Shown here in pieces: positions 8,709 to 30,316 of a stretch of 34,059 nucleotides of DNA (positions are counted from its first letter, which is position 1; each line of letters opens with the position of its first letter). A program made the position numbers and the translations under genes. The stretch covers positions 1 to 34,059 of IMG/VR virus record IMGVR_UViG_3300032516_001943; one strand, given 5' to 3'. Origin of the DNA: a virus. The notes beneath the pieces were generated by a model. It searched no databases and was not told the origin of the DNA. It worked only from the letters and a program-made list of their open reading frames with translations.

Positions 8709-8942
8709 ATGAAAGATAAAATAATAGATTGGTTTCTCACAACCTACGTCAAACATAGGTTTCTTTGGAACTTCTATCGTAGACGAAACGAGAATAAAAT
8801 TCTTCAAGATTATATAACTCAAAGAATCATCGGTTATAAAGATGAAAAACCTCAGGAAAATAGACGAGGCGAACTTCTTGAAAAACAAGGTGAAGAAAAA
8901 GAGTTGGCTTTATTTATTAGTTTTTTAAGGAACTACAAATGA
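8709..8942 (+). CDS. Hypothetical protein, 77 aa, first gene of the island
   Basis: An unknown small protein with an aromatic and basic N-terminus (MKDKIIDWFLTTYVKHRFLWNFYRRR) and a Glu/Lys-rich middle. The N-terminal helix is amphipathic and could touch a membrane, but no clear transmembrane segment is present. Its stop overlaps the start of the glycosyltransferase gene (ATGA), so it belongs to that operon. It may help anchor or regulate the glycan enzymes; this is inference. Confidence 0.55.
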   Translation: MKDKIIDWFLTTYVKHRFLWNFYRRRNENKILQDYITQRIIGYKDEKPQENRRGELLEKQGEEKELALFISFLRNYK

Positions 8943-10075
8943 GTCGTATAATGTTTGTTTGCGATTCTCCCGTCTATTGGAGAAGCGGAATTTGGTTTCA
9001 TCGAGTAAATACTCCAAGTGAAGCTCTTGATAAAAGAGGACATGGTGTTAAACATATAACATTAGGTAAAAGAGGAACTCAAATTTCTCAAGACCTAGTT
9101 GATTGGCCTGATACCGTAATTTTTGGCAGAACCTATCCTGACCATCTCGACCCTCTTTCTGCTATGCAACAATTCAAAAAAGCCGGTAAAAGGATTCTCT
9201 ATGATATGGATGACGATTATTGGACTGTGGCAAAAGACAATCCTTCGATTCTGATGTCCTCGGCTCACAAAGACCAATATGAAAGTTTGATAAGAGGAGC
9301 GGATGCTTTGACGACTCCTTCAGTAACTCTGGCTAAAAAGTTCAAGAAACTCTGTAAGAAACCTGTTTTTATTTGTCCTAATGGAATCAATTCTGAGATT
9401 TATAGAGAAAGATTAAATAATCATCAAGGACTTATTATCGGTTATATGGGAGCGGCTTCTCATTGGAAAGACCTTCAAGTTGTCGGAGAGGCATTAGTTG
9501 AACTCTACAAGAAACATGACTTTATGTTCGTGATTTATGGGGTTACGGCAGAACCGATGGATGCGGCAATTTACGAATACAAGAAAGCTCTGGCTTTTCA
9601 TTTTGCTCCTGAAAAAGAACCTTATCTTAAATCAGCCGTAGATTTCTTCGACAACACATTGAGTAAATTAAAGTTTCATCATATAGCCTTTAGACCTCCC
9701 GAAATGCATCCTATTGCTTTAAGTGGGTGCGATTTTGATATAGGCATCGCTCCAATCGTAGATACGGAGTTTAATCATGGAAAATCGTGCATTAAATTCT
9801 ATGAATATGCTTCAGTAGGAACAGTAACAGTATCTTCGGATGTTATGCCATATTCTGCCGAAGTAAATTATCGTGCTCAAAATACTAAAAAAGATTGGAT
9901 TAAAAAACTTGAAAAGTTAATCATTGATGAAGAATTTAGAAAAAAAACTCTCAAAGAACAACAGGATTGGGTTTCAAAAAATCGTTCCTTAAAAGCTATT
10001 GGATTGGAGTGGGAATTGGCGATTCAAAAACCATCATTACCAGGAGCTCCAAAAGTATTAAACCAACAAAGATAA
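8939..10075 (+). CDS. Glycosyltransferase, GT-B fold (GT4-like)
   Basis: The 378-residue protein has a two-domain GT-B layout. The N-terminal domain includes YDMDDDYW (residues 88-95), then a linker with PNGIN (147-151) and IIGYMGAASHWKD (166-178), the usual start of the nucleotide-sugar domain. The donor-binding region reads FDIGIAPIVDTEF (266-278) followed by KSCIKFYEYASVG (282-294), matching the E-x7-E region of retaining GT4 enzymes. It should add a sugar from a nucleotide sugar to an acceptor; substrate cannot be read from sequence. DMDDDYW-type glycosyltransferases are known to me from several phage and polysaccharide gene clusters. It opens the glycan island. Confidence 0.85.
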   Translation: MSRIMFVCDSPVYWRSGIWFHRVNTPSEALDKRGHGVKHITLGKRGTQISQDLVDWPDTVIFGRTYPDHLDPLSAMQQFKKAGKRILYDMDDDYWTVAKDNPSILMSSAHKDQYESLIRGADALTTPSVTLAKKFKKLCKKPVFICPNGINSEIYRERLNNHQGLIIGYMGAASHWKDLQVVGEALVELYKKHDFMFVIYGVTAEPMDAAIYEYKKALAFHFAPEKEPYLKSAVDFFDNTLSKLKFHHIAFRPPEMHPIALSGCDFDIGIAPIVDTEFNHGKSCIKFYEYASVGTVTVSSDVMPYSAEVNYRAQNTKKDWIKKLEKLIIDEEFRKKTLKEQQDWVSKNRSLKAIGLEWELAIQKPSLPGAPKVLNQQR

Positions 10076-10085
10076 ATTTTTTATC

Positions 10086-10178
10086 ATGCCAATAGGATAT
10101 AAACATACTGAAGAAATGAAGAAAAGATTGTCTGATTTTTCTAAAAAACAATGGTATGAAGACGATAAAACTAAGTAG
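10086..10178 (+). CDS. Tiny protein, 30 aa, NUMOD-like motif
   Basis: A short open frame encodes MPIGYKHTEEMKKRLSDFSK and a ten-residue tail. The GYKHTEE-x-KKRLS pattern resembles the NUMOD3-type DNA-binding motif of homing endonucleases (typically G-x-KHSEETK-x-K-x-S). No nuclease domain is attached, so it could be a remnant of a homing endonuclease or a stand-alone peptide. It overlaps the next gene by 23 bases. Its small size limits confidence. Confidence 0.4.
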   Translation: MPIGYKHTEEMKKRLSDFSKKQWYEDDKTK

Positions 10179-10746
10179 ACAAGAAAACGCAGTTAAGGAC
10201 TTTCAAGAAATAAAACAGGTTTTAGATGAATTAGGTGTTGAGTTCTTTCTTGTTGGAGGTTCAGCATTAGGAGGTTACAGAGATAATGAATTTATGGTTT
10301 CAGGTTCAGCGAGTATAGGATTGGGAATTTTTGAAACTAAAGAAGGTTTAGAATCACTTAAACTTGAAAATCTTATTGCGGATAAATTGGTTGAGAGAGG
10401 ATTTAAAACTGAACCTAATCTTCGAACTATTGTTCAAGTTGTAAAATTGGTTCAGACAATGATTTATTTCTTTATTTTACAGAAATATTGGTGGACATCT
10501 TACATGAGAAATGGAGAATCGCTCGACCAAAGACATTTCTTACCTGACCGACCGAGAGTAAATGTTTACCTGCGATTCCCTCCAAAATTTAATCAACTTG
10601 AAGAAATAATAATAAAAGGAATTAAAGTCAAAGTATTAAAACCAATCGAAGAATATCTAACTCATACTTACGGAAATTGGAAAGCTCCTAATCCAGGACA
10701 AAAGACTAAATTATGGGCGGATAGCGAACCGCCATTCGATGAATAA
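10156..10746 (+). CDS. LicD-like nucleotidyltransferase-fold protein, active-site residues lost
   Basis: This 196-residue protein is one of three LicD-like proteins in the island. It keeps the fold signature FFLVGGSALGGYRD (residues 30-43) and the C-terminal YLTHTYGNWK segment shared with the other two. Where they have the metal-binding GDIDIDLG or GDDDIDIS, this copy has GSASIGLG (residues 50-57), so the acidic catalytic residues are replaced by Ser and Gly. It is therefore predicted to be catalytically inactive and may bind substrate or partner with an active paralogue. LicD proteins in bacteria attach phosphocholine or related groups to surface glycans. It overlaps the following methyltransferase gene by 8 bases. 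Confidence 0.65.
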   Translation: MKTIKLSRQENAVKDFQEIKQVLDELGVEFFLVGGSALGGYRDNEFMVSGSASIGLGIFETKEGLESLKLENLIADKLVERGFKTEPNLRTIVQVVKLVQTMIYFFILQKYWWTSYMRNGESLDQRHFLPDRPRVNVYLRFPPKFNQLEEIIIKGIKVKVLKPIEEYLTHTYGNWKAPNPGQKTKLWADSEPPFDE

Positions 10747-11317
10747 TATGAAAAGAAATCTAAGTTCCGAAAAAGCCGAATATATTAAGAAGTTTATCTT
10801 GAATACCAGGAAGATTCCTGGTGATGTTGCCGAGGTTGGAGTTTCTATCGGAGATAGCGCTGAAGTTATCTGTAAGAATAAAGGAGATGTTCCGATACAT
10901 TTATTCGATACATTCAAAGGACATCCCGCGGAATGGATAGGAAAATATGATTTAGGACAAACTGCGGGTCGTCATGCCGCCTCCCTTGAATCGGTGAAAA
11001 AAAGACTGAATAAATATCCAAATGTTTTTTATTATGAAGGAATTTTTCCTTTTACTTCCGACCCCGTAAAAGATAAAATGTTTTCTTTTGTAAATTTAGA
11101 TACCGATTTGTATAAAAGCACTCTGGCTGGATTGGAATTCTTCTATCCCAGATTATCGGTAGGGGGTGTTATAGGAATTGACGATTCTACCTATATCTTA
11201 GGTGTAGGTTGTGCCATTATTGATTTTCTAACCGGCATGAAATCCAAGGGACCTGAAACTTGGCAGGCTTGTTCGGAATATAAAATGAACCAAGCGTTCA
11301 TAAAGAAAATAAAATGA
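10739..11317 (+). CDS. TylF/MycF-type O-methyltransferase
   Basis: A 192-residue SAM-dependent methyltransferase of the macrocin O-methyltransferase (TylF) family, known to methylate sugar hydroxyls. Family motifs are in order: GDVAEVGVSIGDSA (residues 28-41, SAM-binding loop), HLFDTFKG (54-61), FVNLDTDLYKST (117-128, metal-binding Asp region) and YPRLSVGGVIGIDD (136-149). It is shorter than actinobacterial TylF (about 255 residues) because N-terminal lid elements are missing. It may start at ATG 10739 or 10748. It lies among glycosyltransferases, so methylation of a sugar in the phage-made glycan is the likely job. Its stop overlaps the next gene by ATGA. Confidence 0.85.
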   Translation: MNNMKRNLSSEKAEYIKKFILNTRKIPGDVAEVGVSIGDSAEVICKNKGDVPIHLFDTFKGHPAEWIGKYDLGQTAGRHAASLESVKKRLNKYPNVFYYEGIFPFTSDPVKDKMFSFVNLDTDLYKSTLAGLEFFYPRLSVGGVIGIDDSTYILGVGCAIIDFLTGMKSKGPETWQACSEYKMNQAFIKKIK

Positions 11318-12219
11318 AAATTCTTGTATCAAATTGGAATAATATTTATGACGATGTAATACCGAAACTCGTAAAGAACGGTTATACTCTTGTCAGAACT
11401 CCAGAAGAAGCGGATTTTCTTTTATTGTGGAATGAGGTTGGGTTATCTGGGCGACCACTGGTTGAAAAGGCGCACAAGTTGGGTAAGAAAGTTATTACGT
11501 TACAACACGGTAGATATGGTTCTTCAAGAGTATATCCTCCTTTTAATGAACATATTATTTCAGATAAGTATTTATGTTGGGGTGAGGGAGACAGGAATAG
11601 ACTCTTGGCGATAGGCACTAATCCTGATATACTTGAAGTGGTTGGTTCTCCCATTTTAAAATATTTAAAACCTCGTGTTGCTCACGAAGGAAAGAATATT
11701 GTTTTTTGTCCCGAACATTGGGGAGTTGAAGCTCTTGAGAATTTTATTGTAACGACAGAACTTCGAAAATTGAAAGGAGTTAATATTTTTTCAAAACTTC
11801 TTGAGGGTGAACACGATGAAAGATTCTACCAAAATCCGATAATCTCAAAACGGAACTCTCCAGGACATATAGAGAAAGTTATGGAACTTTTGTCAAAGAC
11901 CGATTTAGTTGTTTCACTACTTGATGGAACATTTGAACTTATCGCCGAATCGATGGATATTCCCGTAATTCTTGTGGATATTTGGCGACCCAAAACAACC
12001 GCCAAAGACCCCAGATATATAGATTACAGGAGACCAACTTCTCCAGCATGTTTAAAAATAAAAGATATTAAACTTTTGAACAAAGAAATAATGTATTATC
12101 TCAAACATCCCGAAATACTCCGAGAAGAACGAAAAATTGTTGCGATTGAAGATGGTGGAATCGATAAAGGAAATCCTGTTGAGAATATTTTAAAGATAAT
12201 AAACGAAATGCTTTTATGA
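11314..12219 (+). CDS. GT-B-fold glycan or polyol-phosphate transferase
   Basis: A 301-residue protein with the second-domain features of GT-B enzymes that act on surface polymers: ITLQHGRYGSSR (residues 61-72), DKYLCWGEGDRNRL (84-97), EVVGSPILKYL (108-118) and, near 195-222, DLVVSLLDGTFELIAESM followed by IPVILVD. The QHG...CWG...GSP order is like CDP-glycerol glycerophosphotransferases and related capsule transferases; UDP-GlcNAc 2-epimerase-like enzymes share the fold, so a hydrolysing epimerase (NeuC-like) is an alternative that would supply the NeuB pathway. No membrane segment is seen. It is coupled to both neighbours by 4-base overlaps. Confidence 0.6.
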   Translation: MKILVSNWNNIYDDVIPKLVKNGYTLVRTPEEADFLLLWNEVGLSGRPLVEKAHKLGKKVITLQHGRYGSSRVYPPFNEHIISDKYLCWGEGDRNRLLAIGTNPDILEVVGSPILKYLKPRVAHEGKNIVFCPEHWGVEALENFIVTTELRKLKGVNIFSKLLEGEHDERFYQNPIISKRNSPGHIEKVMELLSKTDLVVSLLDGTFELIAESMDIPVILVDIWRPKTTAKDPRYIDYRRPTSPACLKIKDIKLLNKEIMYYLKHPEILREERKIVAIEDGGIDKGNPVENILKIINEMLL

Positions 12220-12722
12220 AAACTTTCGTAAGTAAAAAAAATAAAAGGTTCCTCAGTAATTTTGTGTTGGCAATCGGGGGTGGGGTTACTATTGATTCTG
12301 CTAAAATCTATTCTAAAAAACATAATAAATTTTGTATTGCAATTCCCACTACGGGAGCGGGTTCAACTGAAACAACTCATGCGGTAGTTTGGGGTAAAAC
12401 TAAACAAAACATAAAGACTGATAAACCACTGACAGTCTTACCACCATTTAAAATAACATTATCAAAGAAAGACCGAACAAATACTTGTTACGATATGATT
12501 GGTCATTTAGTAGATTATCTAAATGTTTGTTCAGACAATGAACTTGTCGAGGTGGGAATTTATTTAGGAAAGTTAATTGAAAAACATCCAACTAATCTGA
12601 CACATCCAATGTCATACCATTTAACATTAAAAGGTATTCCTCATGGCGAGGCGATTGGAAGAGTGTTAAAACAATGTTTAGATAAAGCATTTCCGTTACC
12701 TGATGACCGAAATAGTCATTAA
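12216..12722 (+). CDS. Compact iron-type alcohol dehydrogenase, probable phosphonoacetaldehyde reductase
   Basis: Iron-containing alcohol dehydrogenases usually have about 380 residues; this one has 168 yet keeps the key motifs. The nucleotide-binding turn is GGGVTIDSAK (residues 21-30), followed by IPTTGAGSTETT (43-54). Metal ligands appear as Asp93 and His97 in CYDMIGHLVDYL, then His135 and His143 in HPMSYHLTLKGIPHG (130-144). The last motif resembles the HAxSYPLTxxYGIPHG segment I recall in Fe-ADHs of phosphonate clusters (PhpC/FomC type), which reduce phosphonoacetaldehyde to 2-hydroxyethylphosphonate. With PEP mutase and decarboxylase genes downstream, that reaction is the best inference. 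The reduced size, from loss of N-terminal Rossmann elements and some C-terminal helices, makes activity uncertain. Confidence 0.75.
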   Translation: MKTFVSKKNKRFLSNFVLAIGGGVTIDSAKIYSKKHNKFCIAIPTTGAGSTETTHAVVWGKTKQNIKTDKPLTVLPPFKITLSKKDRTNTCYDMIGHLVDYLNVCSDNELVEVGIYLGKLIEKHPTNLTHPMSYHLTLKGIPHGEAIGRVLKQCLDKAFPLPDDRNSH

Positions 12723-12739
12723 ACTAATGTTCTTTTACA

Positions 12740-12750
12740 AGAAAGGAGGT
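12740..12750 (+). promoter_or_regulatory. Exceptionally strong Shine-Dalgarno site
   Basis: AGAAAGGAGGT is complementary over 11 bases to the common 16S rRNA 3' end and lies five bases from GGAGG to the ATG at 12755. Nearly all other genes in the window lack such a site. Confidence 0.9.
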
Positions 12751-12754
12751 AGAA

Positions 12755-14260
12755 ATGAACTTTCTACTTATCTATCCGACACAGATTTCAGAGACTCCGA
12801 TGACACTGGCCATGCTTGGGGCTGTTCTCAAGCAAGAAGGTTGGAAAGTATTTACCTGTATTAACACTTTTCGCAAACCTTTAACGGTTCAAGATTTTGT
12901 TAATAAAGCTATGGAAGTTAAAGCAGACTGTGTAGGTATTTCAATGCTTACATTCCAAGTTTTATTTGTTTACGAAATTGTCAAAGCATTAAAGAAAAAA
13001 GGATTTAGCGTTATCTTGGGAGGTCCTCATCCGACCGATTGTCCTTTAGAAGGAATCAAAGCTGGAGCCGATATTGTTATACGAGGCGAGGGCGAAGAAA
13101 CGCTTCGTGAAATTGTTCAAGGAAAATCGTTAAAGACTATCCTTGGAATCACAACTTTAAATTTTTCCACTTCAAACCGACCGCGACTTGATGTGAGTAA
13201 ACTGCCACTTCCAGATTTGAGTATCTTCGAGAAGAATCTATTTCTTGATGATGGATTCATTAAAGGATTTCATCGAGTTTATACTTCTCGCGGATGCCCA
13301 GGCGTATGTACATTCTGCGACTGGAAAGTTTTCGGTCAAAGATTCAAAGCATACGACATTGATTCCGTTGTGGAAGAAATTAAGCAACGCAGAGATAAAT
13401 ACGGACTCCAAAGTTTCTCGATTGCTGATGATTGTTTTACTATCGACCCAAAAAGAGTTTACAGATTCTGCGAACTCATAAAGGGTCTTAATGTAAAATG
13501 GCGAGCAAACTCAAGAGCCAATCTGGTAACCAAAGAAATGCTTGAAACCATGAAGGATTCAGGTTGTCATTCAATCGCTTTTGGACTTGAAAGCGGAGAC
13601 TCTGAAACTCTGCGAAGAATTGGTAAGGATGTTATGTTGTCAGACAATATCCTTGCTCCGAGACTTGCTCACGAAGCAGGTCTTGAGGTCTATGGATGTT
13701 TGATGACTGGTTTTCCGTGGGAAACTCCTGAAAACGTGGAGAATCAAATCAAGTTCGTTCACGAAGTTTGGGATTATGTTTCGTTGTTCCAAGTATCGGG
13801 TTCTTTAATGCCCTTCCCTGGTACAGCGATTTACAGACAGTATGCCAAGAGGTACGGGTTTGAAGAATACTGGCTCAAACCAGAATACCAAAACTTTGGA
13901 ATTCAGGTTTATCAAAATTCTCCCAATCCATTCAAAGTCAGCACTTTTTATCAGAGAACTTTATTTGATGATACATACATTCAGAACGAATACTTCTTTC
14001 CGTATTCGAAAGAATACAAAAAAGCGGTTCGCAGGTTAGTCGGAGAAATAGGCAGACATAATCTTCAATTCATGTTCAAGGGACAACTCGCAAAACAGAA
14101 GATTTATTTTCATTTAGCCAAACTTTCTATGTTAGTTTCTGACTGCTTTCCACATCTAGAAAAAACAGTCATTGGAGGATTGTTTTCTGGAAGAAGTCAG
14201 ATTGAATTGATTCGAGATAAACGGAGAGGAATAGCAAGAAGTTATTCCAACCCCAATTAA
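12755..14260 (+). CDS. B12-binding-type radical SAM enzyme
   Basis: The 501-residue protein has an N-terminal cobalamin-binding-type Rossmann domain (residues 1-140, with VKADCVGISMLTF, VILGGPHPT and GADIVIRGEGE) and a radical SAM domain whose cluster ligands are C181, C185 and C188 (SRGCPGVCTFCDW). Typical downstream segments are SIADDCFTIDPKR, FGLESGDSETLRRIGK and MTGFPWETPE. A C-terminal helical domain follows. This class includes methyltransferases and other enzymes of natural-product and glycan pathways; Fom3, which methylates HEP-CMP, is one member. Because a HEP-CMP pathway is predicted in this island, a Fom3-like reaction is an attractive but unproven idea. Alone among the island genes it has a strong Shine-Dalgarno site, which suggests separate acquisition or a need for high translation. 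Confidence 0.9.
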   Translation: MNFLLIYPTQISETPMTLAMLGAVLKQEGWKVFTCINTFRKPLTVQDFVNKAMEVKADCVGISMLTFQVLFVYEIVKALKKKGFSVILGGPHPTDCPLEGIKAGADIVIRGEGEETLREIVQGKSLKTILGITTLNFSTSNRPRLDVSKLPLPDLSIFEKNLFLDDGFIKGFHRVYTSRGCPGVCTFCDWKVFGQRFKAYDIDSVVEEIKQRRDKYGLQSFSIADDCFTIDPKRVYRFCELIKGLNVKWRANSRANLVTKEMLETMKDSGCHSIAFGLESGDSETLRRIGKDVMLSDNILAPRLAHEAGLEVYGCLMTGFPWETPENVENQIKFVHEVWDYVSLFQVSGSLMPFPGTAIYRQYAKRYGFEEYWLKPEYQNFGIQVYQNSPNPFKVSTFYQRTLFDDTYIQNEYFFPYSKEYKKAVRRLVGEIGRHNLQFMFKGQLAKQKIYFHLAKLSMLVSDCFPHLEKTVIGGLFSGRSQIELIRDKRRGIARSYSNPN

Positions 14261-14262
14261 AC

Positions 14263-14289
14263 ATGGGGATGAAAATCCCCTTTTTATGA
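14263..14289 (+). promoter_or_regulatory. Eight-codon leader frame overlapping the next start
   Basis: A mini frame (MGMKIPFL, stop TGA 14287-14289) runs through the hairpin at 14265-14280 and its stop overlaps the next ATG as ATGA. Ribosomes translating it would melt the hairpin and could re-start at 14286. Function is inferred from layout only. Confidence 0.35.
14265..14285 (+). terminator. Rho-independent terminator-like hairpin abutting a start codon
   Basis: GGGGAT (14265-14270), a GAAA tetraloop and ATCCCC (14275-14280) form a compact stem followed by five T (14281-14285), directly touching the ATG at 14286. It is an intrinsic terminator by form. Since the genes continue without a gap, it is likely partial or acts as an attenuator. 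Confidence 0.7.
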
Positions 14290-14792
14290 AAGGACCCAAC
14301 AAAGCATTACAACTATTTGACCTATTGGATATAACCAAGATTTTTAAAGATGTTGGTTCTGAAATGTTTCTTGTTTACGGAACGGCTTTGGGTGCGTATC
14401 GAGATGGAGATTTTTTACCAGGAGATATTGATATTGATTTAGGTTCATTTGATGTAAAAAAACGAGATATTATCGCCGAAAAAATGAGAAAAAAAGGTTA
14501 TAAGGTTTCGGATATTCTTGACGACAACGGAATGTATCTTAAAGAAGCCCAGATGATTCATGCTAAACATTATATACATATTGATATATTTTTTTACAGA
14601 AAAGATGGAGATAAATATATTGCTTATAGAGATTTAATTGGAGAACCTTTTTCAGTAATTCCTATCGTGGAATTAGAGAAAGTTAAGTTGCTTGGGCGAG
14701 AATTTAATATGCTTTCTTCTGAACTTTTAGAACTATGGTATGGGGATTGGAAAGACAAAAATAATAAAATTCACGGCAGACTTCATGTTTAA
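14286..14792 (+). CDS. LicD-like nucleotidyltransferase-fold transferase
   Basis: A 168-residue LicD-type protein with intact catalytic pattern: MFLVYGTALGAYRDGDF (residues 27-43), metal-binding Asp residues in GDIDIDLG (46-53: D47, D49, D51) and a third acidic position in HIDIFFY (D100). The C-terminal WYGDWKDKNNKIHG segment is shared with the other copies. LicD enzymes transfer phosphocholine from CDP-choline to cell-surface glycans. Here CMP-activated phosphonate, predicted from the PEP mutase genes, is a possible donor. The gene starts directly after a terminator-like hairpin and a mini frame, and its stop lies in a 16-base tandem duplication. Confidence 0.75.
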   Translation: MKGPNKALQLFDLLDITKIFKDVGSEMFLVYGTALGAYRDGDFLPGDIDIDLGSFDVKKRDIIAEKMRKKGYKVSDILDDNGMYLKEAQMIHAKHYIHIDIFFYRKDGDKYIAYRDLIGEPFSVIPIVELEKVKLLGREFNMLSSELLELWYGDWKDKNNKIHGRLHV

Positions 14793-14809
14793 AAGACTTC
14801 ATGTTTAAA
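14778..14809 (+). repeat. 16-base tandem duplication at a gene junction
   Basis: AGACTTCATGTTTAAA occurs twice in a row (14778-14793, 14794-14809). The first copy supplies the stop of the LicD-like gene, the second the ATG of the next gene. With a single copy the two genes would overlap, so the duplication has pulled them apart. Confidence 0.9.
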
Positions 14810-15661
14810 AGAATTATAGATTCATATAATAAAGAAATTAAGGACTTTCCAGAAGTTGGTCCTTATTCTTCTTCTGGTCTATGGACAGGAGCGGAAAAAC
14901 CTTACAAAGATTTAAAGAAACGTTTGGAGAATTTTGGTTCGGATATTATTTCTAGCGGTCTTTCCTTATCAAGGGATGTAATCAATGAAGAACGTATAGG
15001 TAGATATATAACATTGTGGAAACGCCTATTGAATTTAGATTTAAAGTTTCTTGAATATCCTAAAAAATTCGGTTTTAAAATGGTTCGATTTGGAGATATA
15101 TCAACTATTGGAATCGCAACCAGATTTTTATATTATGCTTCAAGAATAAATGAACTGACAAAGAGTGTGATTGAAATAGGAGGTTCATTTGGCGGAGTTC
15201 CATTTCATTTGTTCAGAGATTTTGACTTTAAAGGATTGTATATAGGTTTTGATTTACCTCATTCTTTACTTTTGGCAAAGTATTTTCTTACCGAGATGTT
15301 CCCTGAAAAACGATTCCAATTTTATGGAGAGACCGTGGACAAACCAGATATAATTTTACTTCCGCATTTTGCGATTAAAGACTTCAAGATTAAATGCGAT
15401 ATGGTTTTCAATGCTCACAGTTTATCGGAAATGGGTACTCTGCAAATAGAAGAATATATAAAACAGGTCGAACGCCTTTCAAAGAAATATTTTCTTCATT
15501 TCAATCACGAAATGCAAACGACAAAAAAAGGCGAGGTAAAAAAGAATCTTAATCTGTCGAATTTATCAATTAAAATGAAAAGACTTTATAAACAATTTGA
15601 AATATTTTCAGGTGATGATACTTTGGATTATTTCGAATATCTATATGTTAAAAATAATTAA
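14801..15661 (+). CDS. Putative sugar O-methyltransferase
   Basis: A 286-residue methyltransferase-like protein. After a helical N-terminal domain, the SAM-binding loop reads VIEIGGSFGG (residues 123-132), followed by GFDLPHSLLLAKYFL (149-163) and VFNAHSLSEM (202-211). This order matches the family annotated as putative sugar O-methyltransferase (the NanM-associated group, TIGR04371 as I recall it), which occurs in nonulosonic acid and surface glycan loci. That fits the NeuA and NeuB homologues downstream. It would methylate a sugar or sugar acid in the cytoplasm. The gene end overlaps the next by 17 bases with the chosen start. Confidence 0.75.
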   Translation: MFKRIIDSYNKEIKDFPEVGPYSSSGLWTGAEKPYKDLKKRLENFGSDIISSGLSLSRDVINEERIGRYITLWKRLLNLDLKFLEYPKKFGFKMVRFGDISTIGIATRFLYYASRINELTKSVIEIGGSFGGVPFHLFRDFDFKGLYIGFDLPHSLLLAKYFLTEMFPEKRFQFYGETVDKPDIILLPHFAIKDFKIKCDMVFNAHSLSEMGTLQIEEYIKQVERLSKKYFLHFNHEMQTTKKGEVKKNLNLSNLSIKMKRLYKQFEIFSGDDTLDYFEYLYVKNN

Positions 15662-16922
15662 AGATTTATACCCACTGGGTATCCAGTTATTAGGTGAGAG
15701 TTACGATAAAGCTCTAGAATATATTGAGAAGATTCTTCCCAATAGAGAGTTACAAATTCCTCTTGAGATTATTGAGATAAAAAGCGGAACTAAACTGGAA
15801 CAATGGACTGTGCCAGATGAATGGGTCGTTAAAGACGCATGGGTAAAGTTCAAAGGAGAAAAGATTTTGGATTATAAAAAGAATCCATTATGTCTTGTTG
15901 TCTACTCTGCCCCATTTAAGGGAAAAATGACTAGAGAACAATTTTTGCCGTATCTGAATATTGCCCCCGAAGTGAACGCCTACGCATATAAGTATTCTTT
16001 CTATGAGAAAAAATGGGGATTTACTATTCCTCACGATTCGGTTTATAAAGACAATCATCTTCAGTTGGAAGAAGGCGAATATGAAATAATGATTGATACC
16101 GAATTTAAACCAGGAGTGATGAAACTTGGCGTTCACACAATTATAGGAAAGTCCGAAAGAGAGATTTTACTTTTTGCTCATCTTGACCACCCATATCAGG
16201 CAAATGATAACTTATCTGGCGTGGCATGCCTTATTGATTTAGCAAAGAAAATAAAGTGCGAACATACCGTTAAAATTATCTTTTGTCCTGAAACTATCGG
16301 GTCGATTGCTTATGGACTGACGCAGGACATCTCTAAAGTTGATTTTGTAATAGCTTTAGATTGTATAGGAAATGACAACTCGATATTGATTCAAAAAGCG
16401 TGGGATAAAGAAGCAAGAATAAATTTTGCTATTCACTTTGCCTTGCCAGATTTGATGGCGGATTATAGAAAGGGTGAATTCAGATATCTTATAGGTTCGG
16501 ATGAGTATTTCTTCAATGACCCGAAGATAGGAATTCCAGGGATAATGTTATCACGCTGGCCGTACCCTGAATACCACACTGAATTGGATAAACCTGAAAT
16601 AGTTAAGGAAGAAAAACTTATAGAAATTCAGAACCTTATTCTGAAGACTATTGATATTTATGAACAAGATTTTATCCCTGTTAAAAACTTCAAAGGCCCT
16701 TTGATGAGGTCTAAATACGGAGTTCAAACTGTCAGTAAAGATACCAATCGAGGGATTGATTATCTAATCTATGGGATTGATGGAGAGAAATGGCTTTCTC
16801 GAATAGCGATAGGTTTAGGATTGTCTTGGAACTTTTGTTATGACTTATTAGTTAAATTAGAAAAAGATGGTTATATCAGCCGTAATTCTGGCAAAGTCAG
16901 AAAGTCAAAGACTGCCAAATAA
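15645..16922 (+). CDS. DUF4910 aminopeptidase-like protein
   Basis: From ATG 15645 the protein has 425 residues; an upstream in-frame ATG at 15597 would add 16 residues lying wholly within the previous gene. The N-terminal region has WTVPDEWVVKDAWV, characteristic of the DUF4910 family. The M28-like zinc core is FAHLDHPYQANDNLSG (H179, H182, D188) with PETIGS (E216) downstream, and HTELDKPE near residue 325. A small winged-helix-like C-terminus ends the protein. The family is frequent in polysaccharide and nonulosonic acid clusters, where its substrate is not established. Its last 18 codons overlap the next gene in a different frame. Confidence 0.8.
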   Translation: MLKIIKDLYPLGIQLLGESYDKALEYIEKILPNRELQIPLEIIEIKSGTKLEQWTVPDEWVVKDAWVKFKGEKILDYKKNPLCLVVYSAPFKGKMTREQFLPYLNIAPEVNAYAYKYSFYEKKWGFTIPHDSVYKDNHLQLEEGEYEIMIDTEFKPGVMKLGVHTIIGKSEREILLFAHLDHPYQANDNLSGVACLIDLAKKIKCEHTVKIIFCPETIGSIAYGLTQDISKVDFVIALDCIGNDNSILIQKAWDKEARINFAIHFALPDLMADYRKGEFRYLIGSDEYFFNDPKIGIPGIMLSRWPYPEYHTELDKPEIVKEEKLIEIQNLILKTIDIYEQDFIPVKNFKGPLMRSKYGVQTVSKDTNRGIDYLIYGIDGEKWLSRIAIGLGLSWNFCYDLLVKLEKDGYISRNSGKVRKSKTAK

Positions 16923-17409
16923 AAATATACTTGATTTTCACGGAAAGTCGATGTTTCTTGTGAATGTAGAAAAATGTCTGCATATCTTTGACAAGGTTTA
17001 TGTAACTTCTGATGACCCAAAGATTCTTAAAATGGTGGAAAATATTGGGGCAATAGGCATACTGCGCGGAAAAGACCTATGCGGGTCGATACCCAATATC
17101 CCAGTTTATAGGCACGCTTTAGATTTTATGGGAGAAATTGACGGAATTGTAGCGGTTCAAGCAAATAGTCCGAATGTTCCGTTAAATACGATTGCTCTGG
17201 TTAAAAAGTTAATGGAACTTGGCGGAGAAGAAGTTATGACTTGTCATTCTGATTATTCTTTCTACGGTTCAGTTTGGGGACTGACGAGGAATCTTATCAT
17301 TCAGTATGAGGATTTCTATAAACCAAAACCTAATATACTGATAGTTGATGATTCTATTGATATTCATACCAAAGAAGATTATTTGAACTCATTAAAACAT
17401 GGAAAATAA
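16867..17409 (+). CDS. neuA: CMP-sugar acid synthetase (NeuA-like)
   Basis: The 180-residue protein carries the cytidylyltransferase signature of CMP-nonulosonate synthetases: AVILAKSESQRLPNKNI (residues 5-21), VYVTSDDPKIL, VQANSPNVPL (the family's LQPTSPLR position) and the C-terminal DIHTKEDY (the DIDTPED motif). The start at 16867 is needed to include the N-terminal motif, giving a 56-base overlap with the preceding gene. Usual length is about 220-230 residues, so it is shortened. The first motif has Ser-Glu-Ser in place of the more common Gly-Gly-Ser. It would activate the NeuB product with CTP for use by a glycosyltransferase. It overlaps NeuB by 11 bases. Confidence 0.85.
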   Translation: MVISAVILAKSESQRLPNKNILDFHGKSMFLVNVEKCLHIFDKVYVTSDDPKILKMVENIGAIGILRGKDLCGSIPNIPVYRHALDFMGEIDGIVAVQANSPNVPLNTIALVKKLMELGGEEVMTCHSDYSFYGSVWGLTRNLIIQYEDFYKPKPNILIVDDSIDIHTKEDYLNSLKHGK

Positions 17410-18106
17410 AATACTTTGCATAGCGGAAATTGGGCATAATTTTAATGGTAATCTTCGTCTTGCCAAAACAATGATTGATGAGGCAAAATCCTGCGGGGTT
17501 GATATTGTCAAGTTTCAACTTTATGATACAGATAAAATTAAAAAACCATGGCAATCAAGATATTTAGAATTGAAGTTTGCTGAACTTACTGCTGATGACG
17601 CTTTTGAACTCAAAGAATATTGCGATAAAAAAGGCATAGAATTCATGGCTTCCGCTTTTGATTGTGAACGGGTTAGGTGGCTCAAAGAAATGGGCGTTAA
17701 GCGGTATAAATTGGCTTCCAGGAGCATATATGATACAGAATTGATTGAATGTATGGAAGGGACTGGCAAACCGATAATTGCTTCACTGGGAATGTGGAAA
17801 GGAGATAATTTCCCAGTAATAAAAAATGCGGAGTTTCTTTATTGTATTTCAGAATATCCCGCCTATCTTAAAGAACTTCCAAAATTCGGTATTCAATTTA
17901 ACAATGAATATCAGGGTTTTTCAGACCATACTATTGGTTGTTATTGGGCAAGAGAAGCCGTTAAAAAAGGAGCAAAAATAATTGAAAAACATTTCACTCT
18001 TTCTCATGAACTTCCTGGACACGACCAGAAATGTTCTGCTGAACCTTACGAACTTAAAGACTTAATAACTTATATAAAACAACATGAACGCGGGATTGAC
18101 TTTTAA
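17399..18106 (+). CDS. neuB: Nonulosonate synthase (NeuB-like), SAF domain absent
   Basis: NeuB condenses PEP with a hexosamine or related sugar to make a nine-carbon acid. The TIM-barrel motifs are present: CIAEIGHNFNGN (residues 7-18, Glu10), VDIVKFQLY (34-42), GIEFMASAFD, YKLASRS, GKPIIASLGMW, SDHTIG and KHFTLSHELPGHDQKCS. The protein has 235 residues and ends after the barrel; the C-terminal antifreeze-like SAF domain that covers the active site of the partner subunit in cellular NeuB (about 345 residues) is missing. No gene for the hexosamine 2-epimerase is certain. The loss could alter substrate or require a host partner. Confidence 0.88.
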   Translation: MENKILCIAEIGHNFNGNLRLAKTMIDEAKSCGVDIVKFQLYDTDKIKKPWQSRYLELKFAELTADDAFELKEYCDKKGIEFMASAFDCERVRWLKEMGVKRYKLASRSIYDTELIECMEGTGKPIIASLGMWKGDNFPVIKNAEFLYCISEYPAYLKELPKFGIQFNNEYQGFSDHTIGCYWAREAVKKGAKIIEKHFTLSHELPGHDQKCSAEPYELKDLITYIKQHERGIDF

Positions 18107-18713
18107 AGATTTAGAAACTATCAAAGAAGTCTTCGATAAACTTGGAGTAAAATTTTTGATTACCTACGGAGCGTTACTGGGATTTTACCGAGACAAAACT
18201 TTTCTTCCTGGAGATGACGATATTGATATTTCTGTAATAGACAATATTGATTTGAAAACACGAAAGGAAATAGGTTGGAAACTTTATGACTTGGGATTTC
18301 AATCGCAACAAATAGCTTTCAATGTTTTTGGAAGAATGGAACCCTGTGAAATTGGTTATAACGGAGATGAAAATACAGGAATAATTGTTTGTCAGAGAAA
18401 TTTTAAGTTCACAATATTCTTTTTTAAATCTGTATTTTGTGAACAACATGATTGGGAATATGTTTGTATTCCTAAACTAGGAGCGATGAAACTTATTTCA
18501 ACTCCTGCAAAATTCTTTACTGAATTTGGAGAGATAAAAATAAACAAGAAAAAATATCTCACTCCCAGTCCGATTGAAGATTATCTTTCGTTTACCTATT
18601 TTGATAACTGGAAAGACAAAACTGACAGACGCCATGGATTCACATATCCTGAAATGCACGCTAAAGAAAGTCTTACAAAAGAAGAAGTTAATTCAACACA
18701 AATATGGAAGTAA
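18084..18713 (+). CDS. LicD-like nucleotidyltransferase-fold transferase
   Basis: The third LicD-like protein (209 residues) has FLITYGALLGFYRDKTFLPG (residues 24-43) followed by the metal-binding DDDIDIS (44-50), the strongest match of the three to the canonical LicD motif. The C-terminal part has PIEDYLSFTYFDNWKD then RRHGF, shared in part with the other copies. It lies directly upstream of PEP mutase, overlapping it by 10 bases, and is thus the best candidate to transfer the CMP-activated phosphonate to a glycan. Donor and acceptor are inferred from context. Confidence 0.8.
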   Translation: MNAGLTFKDLETIKEVFDKLGVKFLITYGALLGFYRDKTFLPGDDDIDISVIDNIDLKTRKEIGWKLYDLGFQSQQIAFNVFGRMEPCEIGYNGDENTGIIVCQRNFKFTIFFFKSVFCEQHDWEYVCIPKLGAMKLISTPAKFFTEFGEIKINKKKYLTPSPIEDYLSFTYFDNWKDKTDRRHGFTYPEMHAKESLTKEEVNSTQIWK

Positions 18714-19450
18714 TTGAAGTACATAGCGGGTTATCAGCAATACTCGCAGAAAAATCAAATTATAACGCCTTTTGGATTTCATCTTTGACTCATGCTACGA
18801 GTAAAGGACTTCCCGATAATGAACTTGTGCCCTTAAAGGAACGGGTTGATTTAGTTTCGGAAATTAAACGGATTACCACTAAACCCATTATAGTTGATAT
18901 AGATACAGGAGAAAGTATTGAACATTTGCCTTTTTTAATCAGGTGGTTTGATAAAGCAAACGCTTATGCTGTGATTATGGAAGACAAGAAATATCCTAAA
19001 CAGAATTCACTTCTTGAAGACGCTAACCAAACATTGGAAGATGTGGATGTCTTTTGCAAGAAAATTAAAGTCGCTAAAGAAAATTCCGGCGAGATGAAAA
19101 TCTTTGCTCGATTGGAAAGTTTGATTGCGAAGAAATCTGTTTACGAAGCAATTCTCCGAGCTAAAGCATATATGGAAGCGGGTGCTGATGGAATAATGGT
19201 GCACTCTAAACAAAAAGTTGACTGTTCGGAAGTCATGAGGGTTGCTGAAGAAATAAGAAAGATAAACCCTACGATTACTTTGATTGCTGTTCCCACAACC
19301 TATACTCTCCCAAAAGAACATCCTTTTGAAATTGTAATTCACGCAAATCATCTCATGCGCGCGAGCATGAAAGCCATGCAGAAATACTTAAATGGCGAGG
19401 AGGTCGAACTCGCTTCAGTTGAGGAGATTTTTAATTTAGTCGGACATTGA
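18704..19450 (+). CDS. Phosphoenolpyruvate mutase
   Basis: PEP mutase rearranges PEP into phosphonopyruvate, forming the C-P bond that starts nearly all known phosphonate pathways. The 248-residue protein shows the diagnostic EDKx5NS signature, EDKKYPKQNS (residues 93-102), which separates mutases from other isocitrate-lyase-superfamily enzymes. Other matches are EVHSGLSA (5-12), the metal-site region VDIDTGES (64-71), IFARLES (133-139) and GADGIMVHSK (160-169). The length is somewhat short for the family (about 290) but the core is complete. It overlaps the LicD-like gene before it and the HAD gene after it (4 bases), so it is part of the operon. Relatives in cells are usually followed by the decarboxylase, as here. 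Confidence 0.95.
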   Translation: MEVIEVHSGLSAILAEKSNYNAFWISSLTHATSKGLPDNELVPLKERVDLVSEIKRITTKPIIVDIDTGESIEHLPFLIRWFDKANAYAVIMEDKKYPKQNSLLEDANQTLEDVDVFCKKIKVAKENSGEMKIFARLESLIAKKSVYEAILRAKAYMEAGADGIMVHSKQKVDCSEVMRVAEEIRKINPTITLIAVPTTYTLPKEHPFEIVIHANHLMRASMKAMQKYLNGEEVELASVEEIFNLVGH

Positions 19451-19800
19451 TGATATATATATTTGATATTGACGGGGTGGTTTGTGAAACAAAGAATGGA
19501 GAATATAAAAAATCTATTCCTATTAAAGATAATATCGGGAAAATAAACTTCTTATTCAAAGACCATACTATTATCTTCAATACAGCGAGAGGAACGAAAA
19601 CTGGAATCGATTGGGAAAATTTGACCAAACAACAATTCAAAAAATGGGGGCTTAAATACCATTTAATTTTATTTCAAAAACCCTACGGGGATTTTTACAT
19701 TGATGACAAAGCAGTCAACTCAAAAGATTTTTTTCGTTGGCATACCAGACAAACTCCTAATAAATTGGTTGAAAGGAAAAAATTACATTTCCACCGCTGA
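19447..19800 (+). CDS. HAD-superfamily phosphatase-like protein
   Basis: A minimal HAD hydrolase of 117 residues: motif I YIFDIDGVVC (nucleophile Asp7, acid/base Asp9), motif II FNTARG (residues 44-49) with TGIDWENLT, a Lys in FQKPYGD and motif IV FYIDDKAVN (83-91). This short HAD family occurs in sugar and capsule loci and may remove phosphate from a sugar phosphate. In this island it could act on a nonulosonate 9-phosphate or other intermediate, which is inference. Its last third overlaps the decarboxylase gene by 101 bases in another frame, and the conserved DDKAVN region lies across that gene's start. Confidence 0.75.
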   Translation: MMIYIFDIDGVVCETKNGEYKKSIPIKDNIGKINFLFKDHTIIFNTARGTKTGIDWENLTKQQFKKWGLKYHLILFQKPYGDFYIDDKAVNSKDFFRWHTRQTPNKLVERKKLHFHR

Positions 19801-20080
19801 TGAAGGCGAGGCGATAGGAGTAGCTTGTGGATATTATTTTGCAACAGGAAAAACTCCGACAGTCTTTATGTCGGCAGACGGTTTTTGCAATGCCTTGAAC
19901 CCGATTACAAGTTTGGTAATTCCTAATAAAATAAAAATGAAAATAGTAATTTCAATGGGTCGAAAAGAAGCGCAACATATTGTGATGTCGGACATACTGC
20001 AAGACCTAATCAAACTCATCAAAAAGAAAACGCGTGGAGCAAAAAACATTTCTATCGAACTTATTAAAAAGAAATCCTGA
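19700..20080 (+). CDS. Phosphonopyruvate decarboxylase, N-terminal (PYR) part
   Basis: The 126-residue product matches the thiamine-diphosphate pyrimidine-binding domain of phosphonopyruvate decarboxylase: FFVGIPDKLL (residues 11-20), ADEGEAIGVACGYYFATGK (33-51, with conserved Glu35), ADGFCNALNPITSL (59-72) and QHIVM (92-96). It stops where the central linker of cellular enzymes (total about 380 residues) would begin. The C-terminal half is encoded by the next overlapping gene in a different frame. Two-subunit decarboxylases exist in the related sulfopyruvate enzyme ComDE, so a natural split is plausible; an A-rich run near 20021-20030 also makes a frameshift possible. Confidence 0.85.
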   Translation: MMTKQSTQKIFFVGIPDKLLINWLKGKNYISTADEGEAIGVACGYYFATGKTPTVFMSADGFCNALNPITSLVIPNKIKMKIVISMGRKEAQHIVMSDILQDLIKLIKKKTRGAKNISIELIKKKS

Positions 20081-20414
20081 CTCTGTTATCATAGGTTCTC
20101 TGGGAACTATTTCTTACGACCTTGAACAAATACCCCATAAACATAAGATACTTGTCAAGGGAGCTATGGGTTGTGTTCTTGGTGTAGGTCTTGGTTATGC
20201 TCTCTATTCAAAGAAAAAAGTTATTGTTGTGATTGGCGATGGGGCTTTTCTTATGCGTATGGGGTCAATTTCGACAATCATGGCGTATAAACCCAAAAAT
20301 CTTAAAATATACATTTTGAATAATGGCAAGTATATCTCGACAGGAGGTCAAAAGATAAATTTTATTATTCCCAAACTTCCTCGTATTTTTAATTTAGTCA
20401 AATTTGTGATATAA
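20034..20414 (+). CDS. Phosphonopyruvate decarboxylase, C-terminal (PP) part
   Basis: This 126-residue frame, starting at GTG 20034, holds the diphosphate-binding domain: VIVVIGDGAFLMRMGS (residues 63-78, GDG at 68-70) and, 25 residues later, NNGKYISTGG (96-105), the ThDP metal-binding motif pair. VIIGSLGTISYDL and KGAMGCVLGVGLGYAL also match the decarboxylase family. It overlaps the N-terminal half by 47 bases. The enzyme pair would convert phosphonopyruvate to phosphonoacetaldehyde, the step that pulls the unfavourable mutase reaction forward. Combined length (about 250 residues) is much below that of cellular enzymes because the central linker is missing. Confidence 0.85.
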   Translation: MEQKTFLSNLLKRNPDSVIIGSLGTISYDLEQIPHKHKILVKGAMGCVLGVGLGYALYSKKKVIVVIGDGAFLMRMGSISTIMAYKPKNLKIYILNNGKYISTGGQKINFIIPKLPRIFNLVKFVI

Positions 20415-20415
20415 T
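20407..20415 (+). promoter_or_regulatory. Extended -10 promoter before the cytidylyltransferase gene
   Basis: TGATATAAT (TG 20407-20408, TATAAT 20410-20415) overlaps the end of the decarboxylase gene and lies nine bases before ATG 20425. Transcripts would start almost at the start codon. It is the same nine-base element as that at 2185. Confidence 0.55.
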
Positions 20416-20424
20416 AACCCCTAA

Positions 20425-20835
20425 ATGGAAATATATTTTCCTATGACTGCTGACATATTGACGGTTGGACATGTAAGATGTATAGAATATTTAAGCAAAC
20501 AGGGTTATGTAACGATTGGGCTACTTACAGATGAGGCATTAAAGGGATATAAAAAAAATATAGTTCCGTTCAAAGACAGGAAATACATCATGGATACGAT
20601 TGCCATGGCTATTGGTGCAGATGTAGTTCCTCAAGATACATTAGACCCTTCAAAAAACATCAGAAAATACAAAAGTGATGCGATTGCTTCAGGTGATGGA
20701 TGGGAAAAAGTTGAAGTTAATGCCATAAGGAAATATCGACTTAAAAAAATAGACATTAAATTCAAAGGAGAGAAGGGGAAGAGAGGAGAAAAAAACAAAC
20801 TTTATTCAAGCAGTAAATTAAAAGAAAAACTATGA
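20425..20835 (+). CDS. Phosphonate cytidylyltransferase (Fom1 N-domain-like)
   Basis: The 136-residue protein resembles the cytidylyltransferase domain fused to PEP mutase in Fom1-type enzymes, which makes HEP-CMP. Segments in order are FPMTADILTVGHVR (residues 5-18), TIGLLTDEALKGYK (30-43), DVVPQDTLD (66-74), IRKYKSDAIASGDGW (79-93) and SSSKLKEKL (128-136). The catalytic HxGH motif is TVGH (13-16): the second His is kept, the first is Thr. Activity may be reduced or the residue may be dispensable in this group. Encoding it separately from the mutase is unusual compared with Fom1. Its end overlaps the SDR gene by four bases. It would supply a CMP-activated phosphonate to a LicD-type transferase. 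Confidence 0.8.
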   Translation: MEIYFPMTADILTVGHVRCIEYLSKQGYVTIGLLTDEALKGYKKNIVPFKDRKYIMDTIAMAIGADVVPQDTLDPSKNIRKYKSDAIASGDGWEKVEVNAIRKYRLKKIDIKFKGEKGKRGEKNKLYSSSKLKEKL

Positions 20836-21836
20836 AGAATGTTGTTATCACGGGAGGGGCTGGGTCAATAGGAGTTCATGTTATTTCTTATATTTGTAAA
20901 AATACAAACTGGAATGTTGTTGTGTTGGATTCATTTCATCACAAAGGTTATCGAGAACGAATTTCAAGGATACTCAAAGATAATCCTGAATGGATTTCAA
21001 AATTAAGGGTGATTCAGACTGATTTGAATTGTCCTATCAATCCTCAAATGATAAAAGAGATTGGTGCTGTAGATTACATTTTACATCTTGCGGCTTTATC
21101 AGATGTTTTCTTTTCTGTTGAAAACCCTGTTTACACAATTCAAAATAATATAAATTCAACTTTAGTAATGTTGGAGTATGCAAGAGTGGTTAAACCTGAA
21201 CAATTTATTTATTTTTCAACTGATGAAGTTTTAGGGGCTGTTTCAATAGGAACTTCACACAAGGAATGGGAAACACATAGACCAAGTAATGCTTATTCGG
21301 CATCCAAAGCGGCTTCTGAAGATCTTTGTTATGCCTATTGGAGAAGTTACGATGTTCCAATAATTATTACGAACACGATGAATAATTTTTCAACAATGCA
21401 AAGTTCTTCAAAGTTTCCAGTAATGGTTCAAAAAAAAGTTGAAGTTGGAGATGTTGTTACTATCCACGGAAACGAAAAAGAAATAGGAACACGTTTTTAT
21501 ATTGATTCGAGAATGGTTGCCGAAGCTCTTTTACATATTATAAAACTCGGAGCATATCATCATAAGATTGGAGAAATAGATGAACCAAATCGATATAATA
21601 TTGTTGGAGAAAGAGCATATTCAAATCTTGAATTGGCTAAAATTATTGCCAAAATAATGGGAAAAGAATTGAAATATAAATTAGAAGATTTCCACAATTC
21701 AAATCCAGCCCACGATATACATTATGGTTTAGATGGGACTAAACTTGAAAAAACAGGTTGGAAACCAAGTAAACCTTTTGAAGTTTGTCTTGAAGAAGTT
21801 ATAAAATGGCAACAACAAAACCCAGAATGGATTTAA
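20832..21836 (+). CDS. NAD-dependent epimerase/4,6-dehydratase (SDR)
   Basis: A 334-residue extended SDR. It has the NAD-binding GGAGSIG (residues 8-14), LHLAALSDV (85-92), the dehydratase-type STDEVLG (129-135) and the catalytic YSASK (155-159). The Thr-Asp-Glu triad at 130-132 is that of nucleotide-sugar 4,6-dehydratases such as RmlB, and NNFSTMQ corresponds to RmlB NNYGPYQ. It would make a 4-keto-6-deoxy nucleotide sugar, a precursor for deoxy or amino sugars. The nucleotide cannot be told. It is the last gene of the island, 15 bases before the first tail gene. Confidence 0.88.
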   Translation: MKNVVITGGAGSIGVHVISYICKNTNWNVVVLDSFHHKGYRERISRILKDNPEWISKLRVIQTDLNCPINPQMIKEIGAVDYILHLAALSDVFFSVENPVYTIQNNINSTLVMLEYARVVKPEQFIYFSTDEVLGAVSIGTSHKEWETHRPSNAYSASKAASEDLCYAYWRSYDVPIIITNTMNNFSTMQSSSKFPVMVQKKVEVGDVVTIHGNEKEIGTRFYIDSRMVAEALLHIIKLGAYHHKIGEIDEPNRYNIVGERAYSNLELAKIIAKIMGKELKYKLEDFHNSNPAHDIHYGLDGTKLEKTGWKPSKPFEVCLEEVIKWQQQNPEWI

Positions 21837-21851
21837 TAATATAAATAAAAT

Positions 21852-22505
21852 ATGAATCTACTTACATTAAAAAACGATGTGAATTTTCTCTGCGGTTCTA
21901 CTTCCGCCACTTATGCGGACACGGATAAATTGAGAAATATCAATGTTTCTTATGCAAATGTTGCAAGAATAATTTGGGAGAACGCTGGAGGTTGGCAATA
22001 TGACGATTCTAACGCCACCGATTTTGGAATTGCTACAACCAATATCAAAGCAAGTCAGCAAGATTACGAACTTCCTTCCACCTGTCAAAGACTTCAAGCT
22101 GTTGAGTTAAATAACGTTAGATTAAAACAGGTTGATTTGAGCGACATGCCAAATTCAATTACAAATTTTGAGGGACAGATTTGTTATGATATTCATGGCA
22201 GGTCAATTTTTCTTTATCCGACGCCCAGCGGGGACATAGCGGCAGGACTTAAAGTATTCTTTGATAGGGATGTTACGGATTTAAGTGCCGATGTAGATAC
22301 TCCTGGATTTCCAGTTCCATTTCATAGAATTTTATCTTTGTCCGCTTCTTTAGACTTTATAACCGAACCCAATAAAAGAAGTTTTCTGGTAGAACAAAAA
22401 ATAAGTCTTGAAAAAGGTTTAGCTAAGTTTGTTTCTAAAAGAAATTTAGAAAGGCAGACTGCAATTAGACCTAAAAATAAACGTAGTTGGCGTCAATATC
22501 AGTAA
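21852..22505 (+). CDS. Probable head-tail adaptor or neck protein
   Basis: A 217-residue protein at the resumption of the virion genes. It has a helical N-terminus, then WENAGGWQYDDSNATDFGIAT and QQDYELPSTCQRLQAVE, a pattern I recall from adaptor-like proteins of podoviruses and siphoviruses, and a basic C-terminal tail. These proteins bind below the portal. Position after the capsid and before the tail proteins, although separated by the island, supports the call. The match is by motif order only. Confidence 0.5.
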   Translation: MNLLTLKNDVNFLCGSTSATYADTDKLRNINVSYANVARIIWENAGGWQYDDSNATDFGIATTNIKASQQDYELPSTCQRLQAVELNNVRLKQVDLSDMPNSITNFEGQICYDIHGRSIFLYPTPSGDIAAGLKVFFDRDVTDLSADVDTPGFPVPFHRILSLSASLDFITEPNKRSFLVEQKISLEKGLAKFVSKRNLERQTAIRPKNKRSWRQYQ

Positions 22506-30288: not shown

Positions 30289-30316
30289 AATATATATCAT
30301 TATTTATGGAAATCAA
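30289..30316 (-). promoter_or_regulatory. Promoter for the minus-strand membrane protein
   Basis: On the minus strand TTGATT (30311-30316) is followed after 16 bases by TATATT (30289-30294), six bases before the ATG at 30282. Spacing and sequence fit a sigma70-type promoter that gives an almost leaderless mRNA. It overlaps the start of the fibre gene on the other strand. Confidence 0.5.

Follow-up and report, generated by a model that had tools for sequence, protein, structure and literature searches.

A five-gene phosphonate set in a viral record

The IMG/VR virus record IMGVR_UViG_3300032516_001943 is a metagenomic contig of 34,059 bases, and the window analyzed here is the entire record. 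Five of its genes, all on the plus strand, are predicted to build and activate a compound with a C–P bond. A phosphoenolpyruvate (PEP) mutase (PEPM; 18704..19450, 248 aa) would form phosphonopyruvate from PEP, and a phosphonopyruvate decarboxylase (Ppd) split into an alpha half (19700..20080) and a beta half (20034..20414) would convert it to phosphonoacetaldehyde. A miniature Fe-type alcohol dehydrogenase (FeADH; 12216..12722, 168 aa), the predicted phosphonoacetaldehyde reductase, would then yield 2-hydroxyethylphosphonate (HEP), which a cytidylyltransferase (CTase; 20425..20835, 136 aa) would activate as CMP-HEP. Judged from its genes, the virus very probably makes such a compound and links it to a glycan. 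A first-pass annotation of the sequence had named these five proteins at these positions, inside the virion gene block, and family searches agree with it. It overlooked the LicD, NeuA, NeuB and glycosyltransferase genes around the set, as well as the strong shortening of FeADH and of both Ppd halves.

PEPM carries the EDK-x5-NS motif expected from the annotation, as EDKKYPKQNS, and the motif is kept in relatives. TIGR02320 is its top family (246 bits, E=3.7e-73); phosphonopyruvate hydrolase (112.8 bits) and methylisocitrate lyase (85.8 bits) score lower. The protein is short, beginning at profile position 12, and scores below the TIGR02320 cut-off of 319.55, which is a naming threshold; it scores above the Pfam PEP_mutase cut-off. 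Its top PDB match is the Mytilus PEPM 1m1b. In a tree with 36 viral rows, obtained after dropping sequences of more than about 93% similarity and including three GenBank records, the window falls within the PEPM clade, apart from other PF13714 proteins, and is closest to the viral contigs L002, L004 and L005. Neither the family scores, the PDB match nor the tree places it with methylisocitrate lyases or oxaloacetate hydrolases. Two short, unverified human faecal records (L007 and L008), which cluster with bacterial sequences in trees, were excluded from the phage evidence.

The two Ppd chains match complementary parts of TIGR03297 (profile length 360), the alpha half with 63.0 bits at positions 4–116 and the beta half with 78.2 bits at positions 177–285. 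The alpha half, a PYR domain of at most 126 aa with its start at 19700 or 19703, finds RhiE (9IZ3_A, E=1.5e-10) as its top PDB match. The beta half, a thiamine pyrophosphate (TPP) pyrophosphate (PP) domain of 126 aa, finds RhiF (9IZ3_B, E=4.3e-27) and contains GDG..NN, the TPP motif, along with STGGQ. Ppd is thus the nearest family for both halves, and decarboxylation is the predicted reaction. The alpha reading frame shares about 100 bases with that of a small HAD phosphatase-like protein of the EcbF/BcbF subfamily (19447..19800; 27 bits, below cut-off), which is kept in the related contigs L005 and L011 and is separate from the alpha half in L005.

FeADH scores above the Pfam cut-off for Fe-ADH_2. 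It had been described as having a phosphonoacetaldehyde-reductase-like motif, and the phosphonate Fe-ADH family PsrA (TIGR03405) is indeed its best NCBIfam match, but the match spans just 45 C-terminal residues and its 35 bits are far under the cut-off of 423.7. The short protein is therefore not placed as a member of that family and is predicted only to work like one. The NAD motif GGG, K63, D93, H130 and H143 are invariant in 31 viral FeADHs; the window protein has GGG, D93, H97, H130 and H143, and H97 is replaced by Q in some relatives. In a tree that did not include FomC or PhpC references, it groups tentatively with Fe-ADHs adjoining pepM, the split from the outgroup having a support of only 64. 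An AF2 model built from 31 sequences reached a pLDDT of 93.8 and replaced an earlier model from 8 sequences (pLDDT 60.5). The leading Foldseek matches of this model are all Fe-ADH or glycerol dehydrogenase chains, including sulfoacetaldehyde reductase 6jko, and VIA aligns about 150 of the 168 residues to FucO residues 55–344 (Z 7.6, 3.6 Å). These matches show the superfamily, not the function. Against viral models (BFVD), Foldseek gave no match at E <= 0.001.

The CTase scores above the PF01467 cut-off and is homologous to CTase domains fused with PEPM in other phages. This fusion, found in one phage group and in bacteria, has the architecture of Fom1.

The annotation had also suggested looking for the set in other phage genomes. 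A search of IMG/VR with PEPM, FeADH and PpdB (the beta half) yielded 44 distinct contigs, the window among them; some are near-copies, so the independent events are fewer. All five genes are present in 34 of them, 15 of which have LicD in the fetched stretch. Among the FeADH-seeded contigs, 29 of 33 have PEPM within 8 kb and 30 of 33 have PpdB. The order is LicD-PEPM-PpdA-PpdB-FeADH-CTase in the window's lineage and [CTase-PEPM]-PpdA-PpdB-FeADH in others. A match to the terminase large subunit (TerL; phrog_2) occurs in 16 of 43 contigs, and the remainder are viral by IMG/VR classification. Between the FeADH genes of the window and L002, the fraction of sites that differ is 0.17/0.16/0.66 at codon positions 1/2/3, and other genes behave alike; strong purifying selection acts on all the copies that were compared. 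Because the set recurs across distinct viral contigs and substitutions concentrate on third codon positions, the assembly is more than chance.

The reductase has its own history within this set. The window and L002 carry a small FeADH of another clade, and their PEPM relatives L005 and L011 a larger one; comparison of the PEPM and FeADH trees indicates that the reductase was swapped while the reduction step was retained. One further FeADH-like frame (L014; 3300025000_001646:55594-55845) contains two in-frame TGA codons and is either a pseudogene or a case of recoded TGA.

Related genes extend beyond these contigs. PEPM, Ppd, CTase, Fe-ADH and LicD also come together in bacterial loci, and in a Clostridiaceae metagenome-assembled genome (MAG) an 842-aa reading frame (L047, from 156) combines Ppd, CTase and PEPM in a single chain by profiles. 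Two other loci (L078:1100-2933 and L088:7480-9271) have CTase, FeADH and LicD, with no PEPM or Ppd within the fetched stretch. The GenBank phage collection gave five PEPM-like matches, one of them from an isolate, Vibrio phage Va2 (MW073017), whose PEP mutase is annotated as such. This distant phage also has a TPP enzyme matching Ppd, but its mutase shares 28.9% identity on a very long branch, and FeADH was not found in the stretch read.

The glycan block and its LicD transferase

The phosphonate genes lie within the virion gene block, since TerL (3050-4561) and the major head protein (MCP; 7608..8597, phrog_267 E=2.5e-30) are upstream and tail proteins, by PHROG matches, follow from 22518 on. 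The intervening genes form a sugar and phosphonate block, and all those with coordinates given here are on the plus strand. The first larger gene past the capsid gene encodes a group 1 glycosyltransferase (GT; 8939..10075, a weak Pfam match). A DUF4910/M28-like protein conserved in the block (15597..16922) precedes a shortened cytidylyltransferase of the CMP-nonulosonate/KDO type (NeuA; 16867..17409, 180 aa; PseF 47.5 bits, KdsB-type 42.7 bits) and a shortened NeuB-type nonulosonate synthase (17399..18106, 235 aa; TIGR03569 E=3.4e-52). A LicD-family transferase with a DDDID motif (LicD3; 18084..18713) comes next and overlaps the PEPM start by ten bases. It scores 24.7 bits against the PF04991 cut-off of 22.6 and is the predicted HEP-phosphonate transferase. 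Past the CTase lie a NAD-dependent nucleotide-sugar 4,6-dehydratase/epimerase (SDR; 20832..21836) and, at the downstream edge of the block, a conserved virion-block protein (21852..22505).

Several other genes complete the block. A second LicD-family protein has a DIDID motif (14286..14792), and a third LicD-like protein (10156..10746) has SGSASIGLG in place of DxD and is perhaps inactive. A TylF-like methyltransferase is also found upstream of PEPM, among the glycan genes. The conserved protein at 11314..12219 matched no Pfam family, and its designation CDPglyGPT is a working label only. Further along, a tail-fibre protein with collagen-like PHROG matches is encoded at 30306-31769.

Relatives of the window phage give this context more weight. 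A single-sequence IMG/VR search with the window MCP found no relatives; an alignment-based search found 70 loci of its phage family. The order MCP-GT-...-DUF4910-NeuA-NeuB-LicD3 is largely kept across those with enough flank, and the place after LicD3 is taken by the phosphonate module in some loci and by a small methyltransferase-like gene in others, with no locus having the two together. The latter gene, a weak TehB match, lies directly or closely 3' of LicD3 in 16 loci (L168:12274-12792 and 15 more), where it may supply the same LicD with another donor or another kind of tailoring. On quick trees of 21 rows or fewer and modest support, changes between the two states number 2 for LicD3 and 4–5 for MCP, NeuB, NeuA, GT and DUF4910. 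With fewer changes than the capsid and sugar genes, LicD appears to travel with the donor module.

Gene fusions point the same way. A phage reading frame (L105:9352-10440) joins a phosphonate-type CTase to a LicD domain. In a Eubacterium MAG, a 1002-aa NTP-transferase/Fe-ADH/LicD protein (L048:2422-5430) sits beside CTase-PEPM and Ppd, and another bacterial locus (L034) has a similar LicD-Fe-ADH fusion by profiles. Together with the adjacent LicD3, the CTase-LicD and Fe-ADH/LicD fusions argue that CMP-HEP is the activated donor for LicD-dependent glycan decoration. The annotation's route to HEP-CMP is supported by the families, the phylogeny, the RhiEF-like halves, the recurrence, the Fom1-type fusions and the alternation of FeADH with an aminotransferase described below. 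Its placing of the end of the pathway at HEP-CMP is probably wrong, given the neighboring LicD and the LicD fusions.

We propose that a LicD-type transferase would add the phosphonate of HEP to a sialic-acid-like (NeuB/NeuA) glycan, assembled in the cytoplasm by the same late gene block. The placement in the virion block, the soluble enzymes and the lack of a flippase or polymerase family in the block suggest a cytoplasmic acceptor and hence virion proteins, so a virion protein is more likely as the acceptor than the host envelope. For the whole of this reading, from the HEP route and CMP-HEP donor to LicD acting on a phage-built glycan with a virion acceptor favored, we estimate a probability of about two in three.

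The best-surviving alternative is that CMP-HEP is made but the glycan is placed on the host surface, for receptor masking or superinfection exclusion. NeuA/NeuB and LicD are characteristic of loci for envelope glycans, and cell-surface decoration has been proposed for bacterial relatives of the module (PMC6697681, PMC8931226). However, the block sits between MCP and the downstream tail genes throughout this phage family. A simple hydropathy scan of the block gave no clear membrane protein, only marginal windows in PpdB and SDR, and no flippase or polymerase family was found there. A host-surface destination is thus a serious but somewhat unlikely alternative.

Which phosphonate, and whether the enzymes are active

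Phosphonoacetaldehyde is a branch point of phosphonate pathways, from which reduction leads to HEP and transamination to 2-aminoethylphosphonate (AEP). The 15 Ppd-seeded viral contigs divide into 12 with FeADH, two with a class-V aminotransferase (L109:9940-11019 and L111:3544-4650) and one with neither (L004); none has both. Such mutual exclusion is expected if the two enzymes compete for phosphonoacetaldehyde. The aminotransferase contigs have PEPM and Ppd and no FeADH, and are probably AEP makers. Searches of the window's 34 kb for aminotransferases of PF00266 and PF00155 found none, in line with the annotation. HEP is favored because of this alternation, the lack of a window aminotransferase and the exchange of FeADH with its step kept.

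A product of AEP, formed by a host aminotransferase acting on phosphonoacetaldehyde and activated by the CTase as CMP-AEP, would fit the observation that AEP is the commonest bacterial decoration (PMC6697681), and class-V aminotransferases do occur in the two related viral contigs. The mutual exclusion and the composition of the window stand against it, and the pyridoxal phosphate (PLP) enzymes of L002, L004 and L013, considered as AEP aminotransferases, turned out to be DegT-type sugar aminotransferases. We regard AEP as an unlikely product.

A Fom3-like extension of the route is more improbable. A B12-binding radical SAM gene (12755..14260), directly 3' of the window FeADH and also present in L012, L112 and L211, could in principle encode a protein that converts CMP-HEP to 2-hydroxypropylphosphonate-CMP by methylation, as in fosfomycin biosynthesis. 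The gene is, however, absent from most cassettes, its best families are HpnJ and ApyD, with the P-methyltransferase families PhpK and Sden_1168 scoring lower, and a relative sits in aminotransferase-type SAR11 loci. Relatives of the protein were seen in L012, L112, L210, L211 and SAR11 phosphonate loci.

Marginally more improbable still is that the genes are decaying, inactive leftovers of a captured bacterial cluster. FeADH, PpdA, PpdB, NeuA and NeuB are all shorter than their bacterial counterparts and one LicD copy lacks DxD, but substitutions fall on third positions, catalytic residues are invariant across divergent phages, FeADH was apparently exchanged with its step retained, and its predicted fold is confident. 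Least probable of all is a glycerol-phosphate branch unrelated to PEPM, in which FeADH as glycerol-1-phosphate dehydrogenase (31.7 bits) and the CTase as TagD (31.5 bits), both weak NCBIfam matches, would lead to CDP-glycerol; this was rejected because PEPM-less sister phages keep the other glycan genes without FeADH and nearly all without CTase, and it also conflicts with the CTase-PEPM fusion in many phages and bacteria and with FeADH adjoining Ppd.

Several observations weigh against the proposed HEP decoration. FeADH is without about half of a normal Fe-ADH, and its Foldseek TM-scores are 0.3–0.45 and its VIA Z below 8; the low TM-scores result from the missing half. The window CTase has TVGH where HxGH is expected. 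This TxGH form, common to seven relatives, is the one found in related adenylyltransferases, CoaD among them. The CTase by itself cannot settle the product, since PF01467 CTases joined to PEPM are also known from loci that contain an AEP-type aminotransferase. On the 28-kb contig of L004 FeADH is missing while the remaining four genes are present, a few SAR11 bacterial loci carry both FeADH and aminotransferase, and a host aminotransferase could divert phosphonoacetaldehyde. LicD3 lies near the Pfam cut-off, above or below it depending on the phage, with the L005 and L011 orthologues just below, and the small LicD tree has weakly supported inner branches and places a methyltransferase-type locus (L195) among the PEPM ones.

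In one SAR11 single-cell genome (L015:14082-15630) there are several CTases. One of them forms a PEPM fusion and neighbors an aminotransferase, and another is unfused and lies next to Fe-ADH, a layout that looks as if a single genome held both branches.

Relation to known phosphonate and glycan systems

Every kind of enzyme in the module is already known. As far as searches of open papers show, what is new is the occurrence in viruses, the splitting and small size of the enzymes and the methyltransferase swap at a fixed site. No description of a phage-borne module for phosphonate biosynthesis turned up in those searches, which is weak evidence of novelty; viral genes for phosphonate degradation, not biosynthesis, are listed in PMC13188868. 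A broader proposition, that tailed-phage virions of several lineages bear HEP-decorated glycans made by a phage-encoded, miniaturized C–P pathway and that phages may feed the phosphonoglycan pool of natural waters, is put forward tentatively, at less than even odds. Phosphonates are hard for most cells to degrade, and phosphonoglycans are part of marine dissolved organic phosphorus. Bacteria and archaea are regarded as their makers, and a recurrent viral module would add viruses to the list. The module would also represent a chemically unusual surface decoration, and it provides a very small Ppd and Fe-ADH for study.

The closest parallel for the chemistry is the entry to fosfomycin biosynthesis in Streptomyces, where Fom1, Fom2 and FomC follow the order predicted here, from PEP through phosphonopyruvate, phosphonoacetaldehyde and HEP to CMP-HEP. 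The architecture and cytidylyltransferase activity of Fom1 are cited in PMC6697681. Related phages share its CTase-PEPM fusion, whereas the window has separate CTase and PEPM genes; the comparison is by families and architecture, not by a direct tree. Unlike the fosfomycin cluster, the window has no epoxidase that could be found, and glycan genes rather than an antibiotic cluster surround the module. For the decarboxylase, RhiEF is a heterodimeric, two-chain Ppd (PMC12141560; PDB 9IZ3/9IZ4) and likewise has its PYR and PP domains on separate polypeptides. The window chains are smaller (126+126 aa versus 181+186), the PP half is without the C-terminal part, and the genes overlap.

For the decoration, mycobacteriophages provide a precedent in which phage genes glycosylate capsid or tail proteins (Freeman 2023, as cited in PMC12619734). 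No phosphonate is involved, and the acceptor is demonstrated there, while in the window we infer it from the genes. The bacterial phosphonyl tailoring (Pnt) loci (PMC6697681) and the phosphonoglycoproteins of SAR11 and Prochlorococcus (PMC8931226) resemble the window in combining PEPM, Ppd and a PF01467 CTase with LicD and glycan genes, and HEP is named among the most abundant marine phosphonates (PMC6697681; PMC8931226). The window differs in being viral, in lying within a virion gene block, in its split mini Ppd and mini Fe-ADH, and in belonging to a group that mostly takes the HEP rather than the AEP branch. Phosphonate coats have been proposed to shield cells from phages (PMC8931226); in the window, by contrast, it is the phage itself that holds the phosphonate genes.

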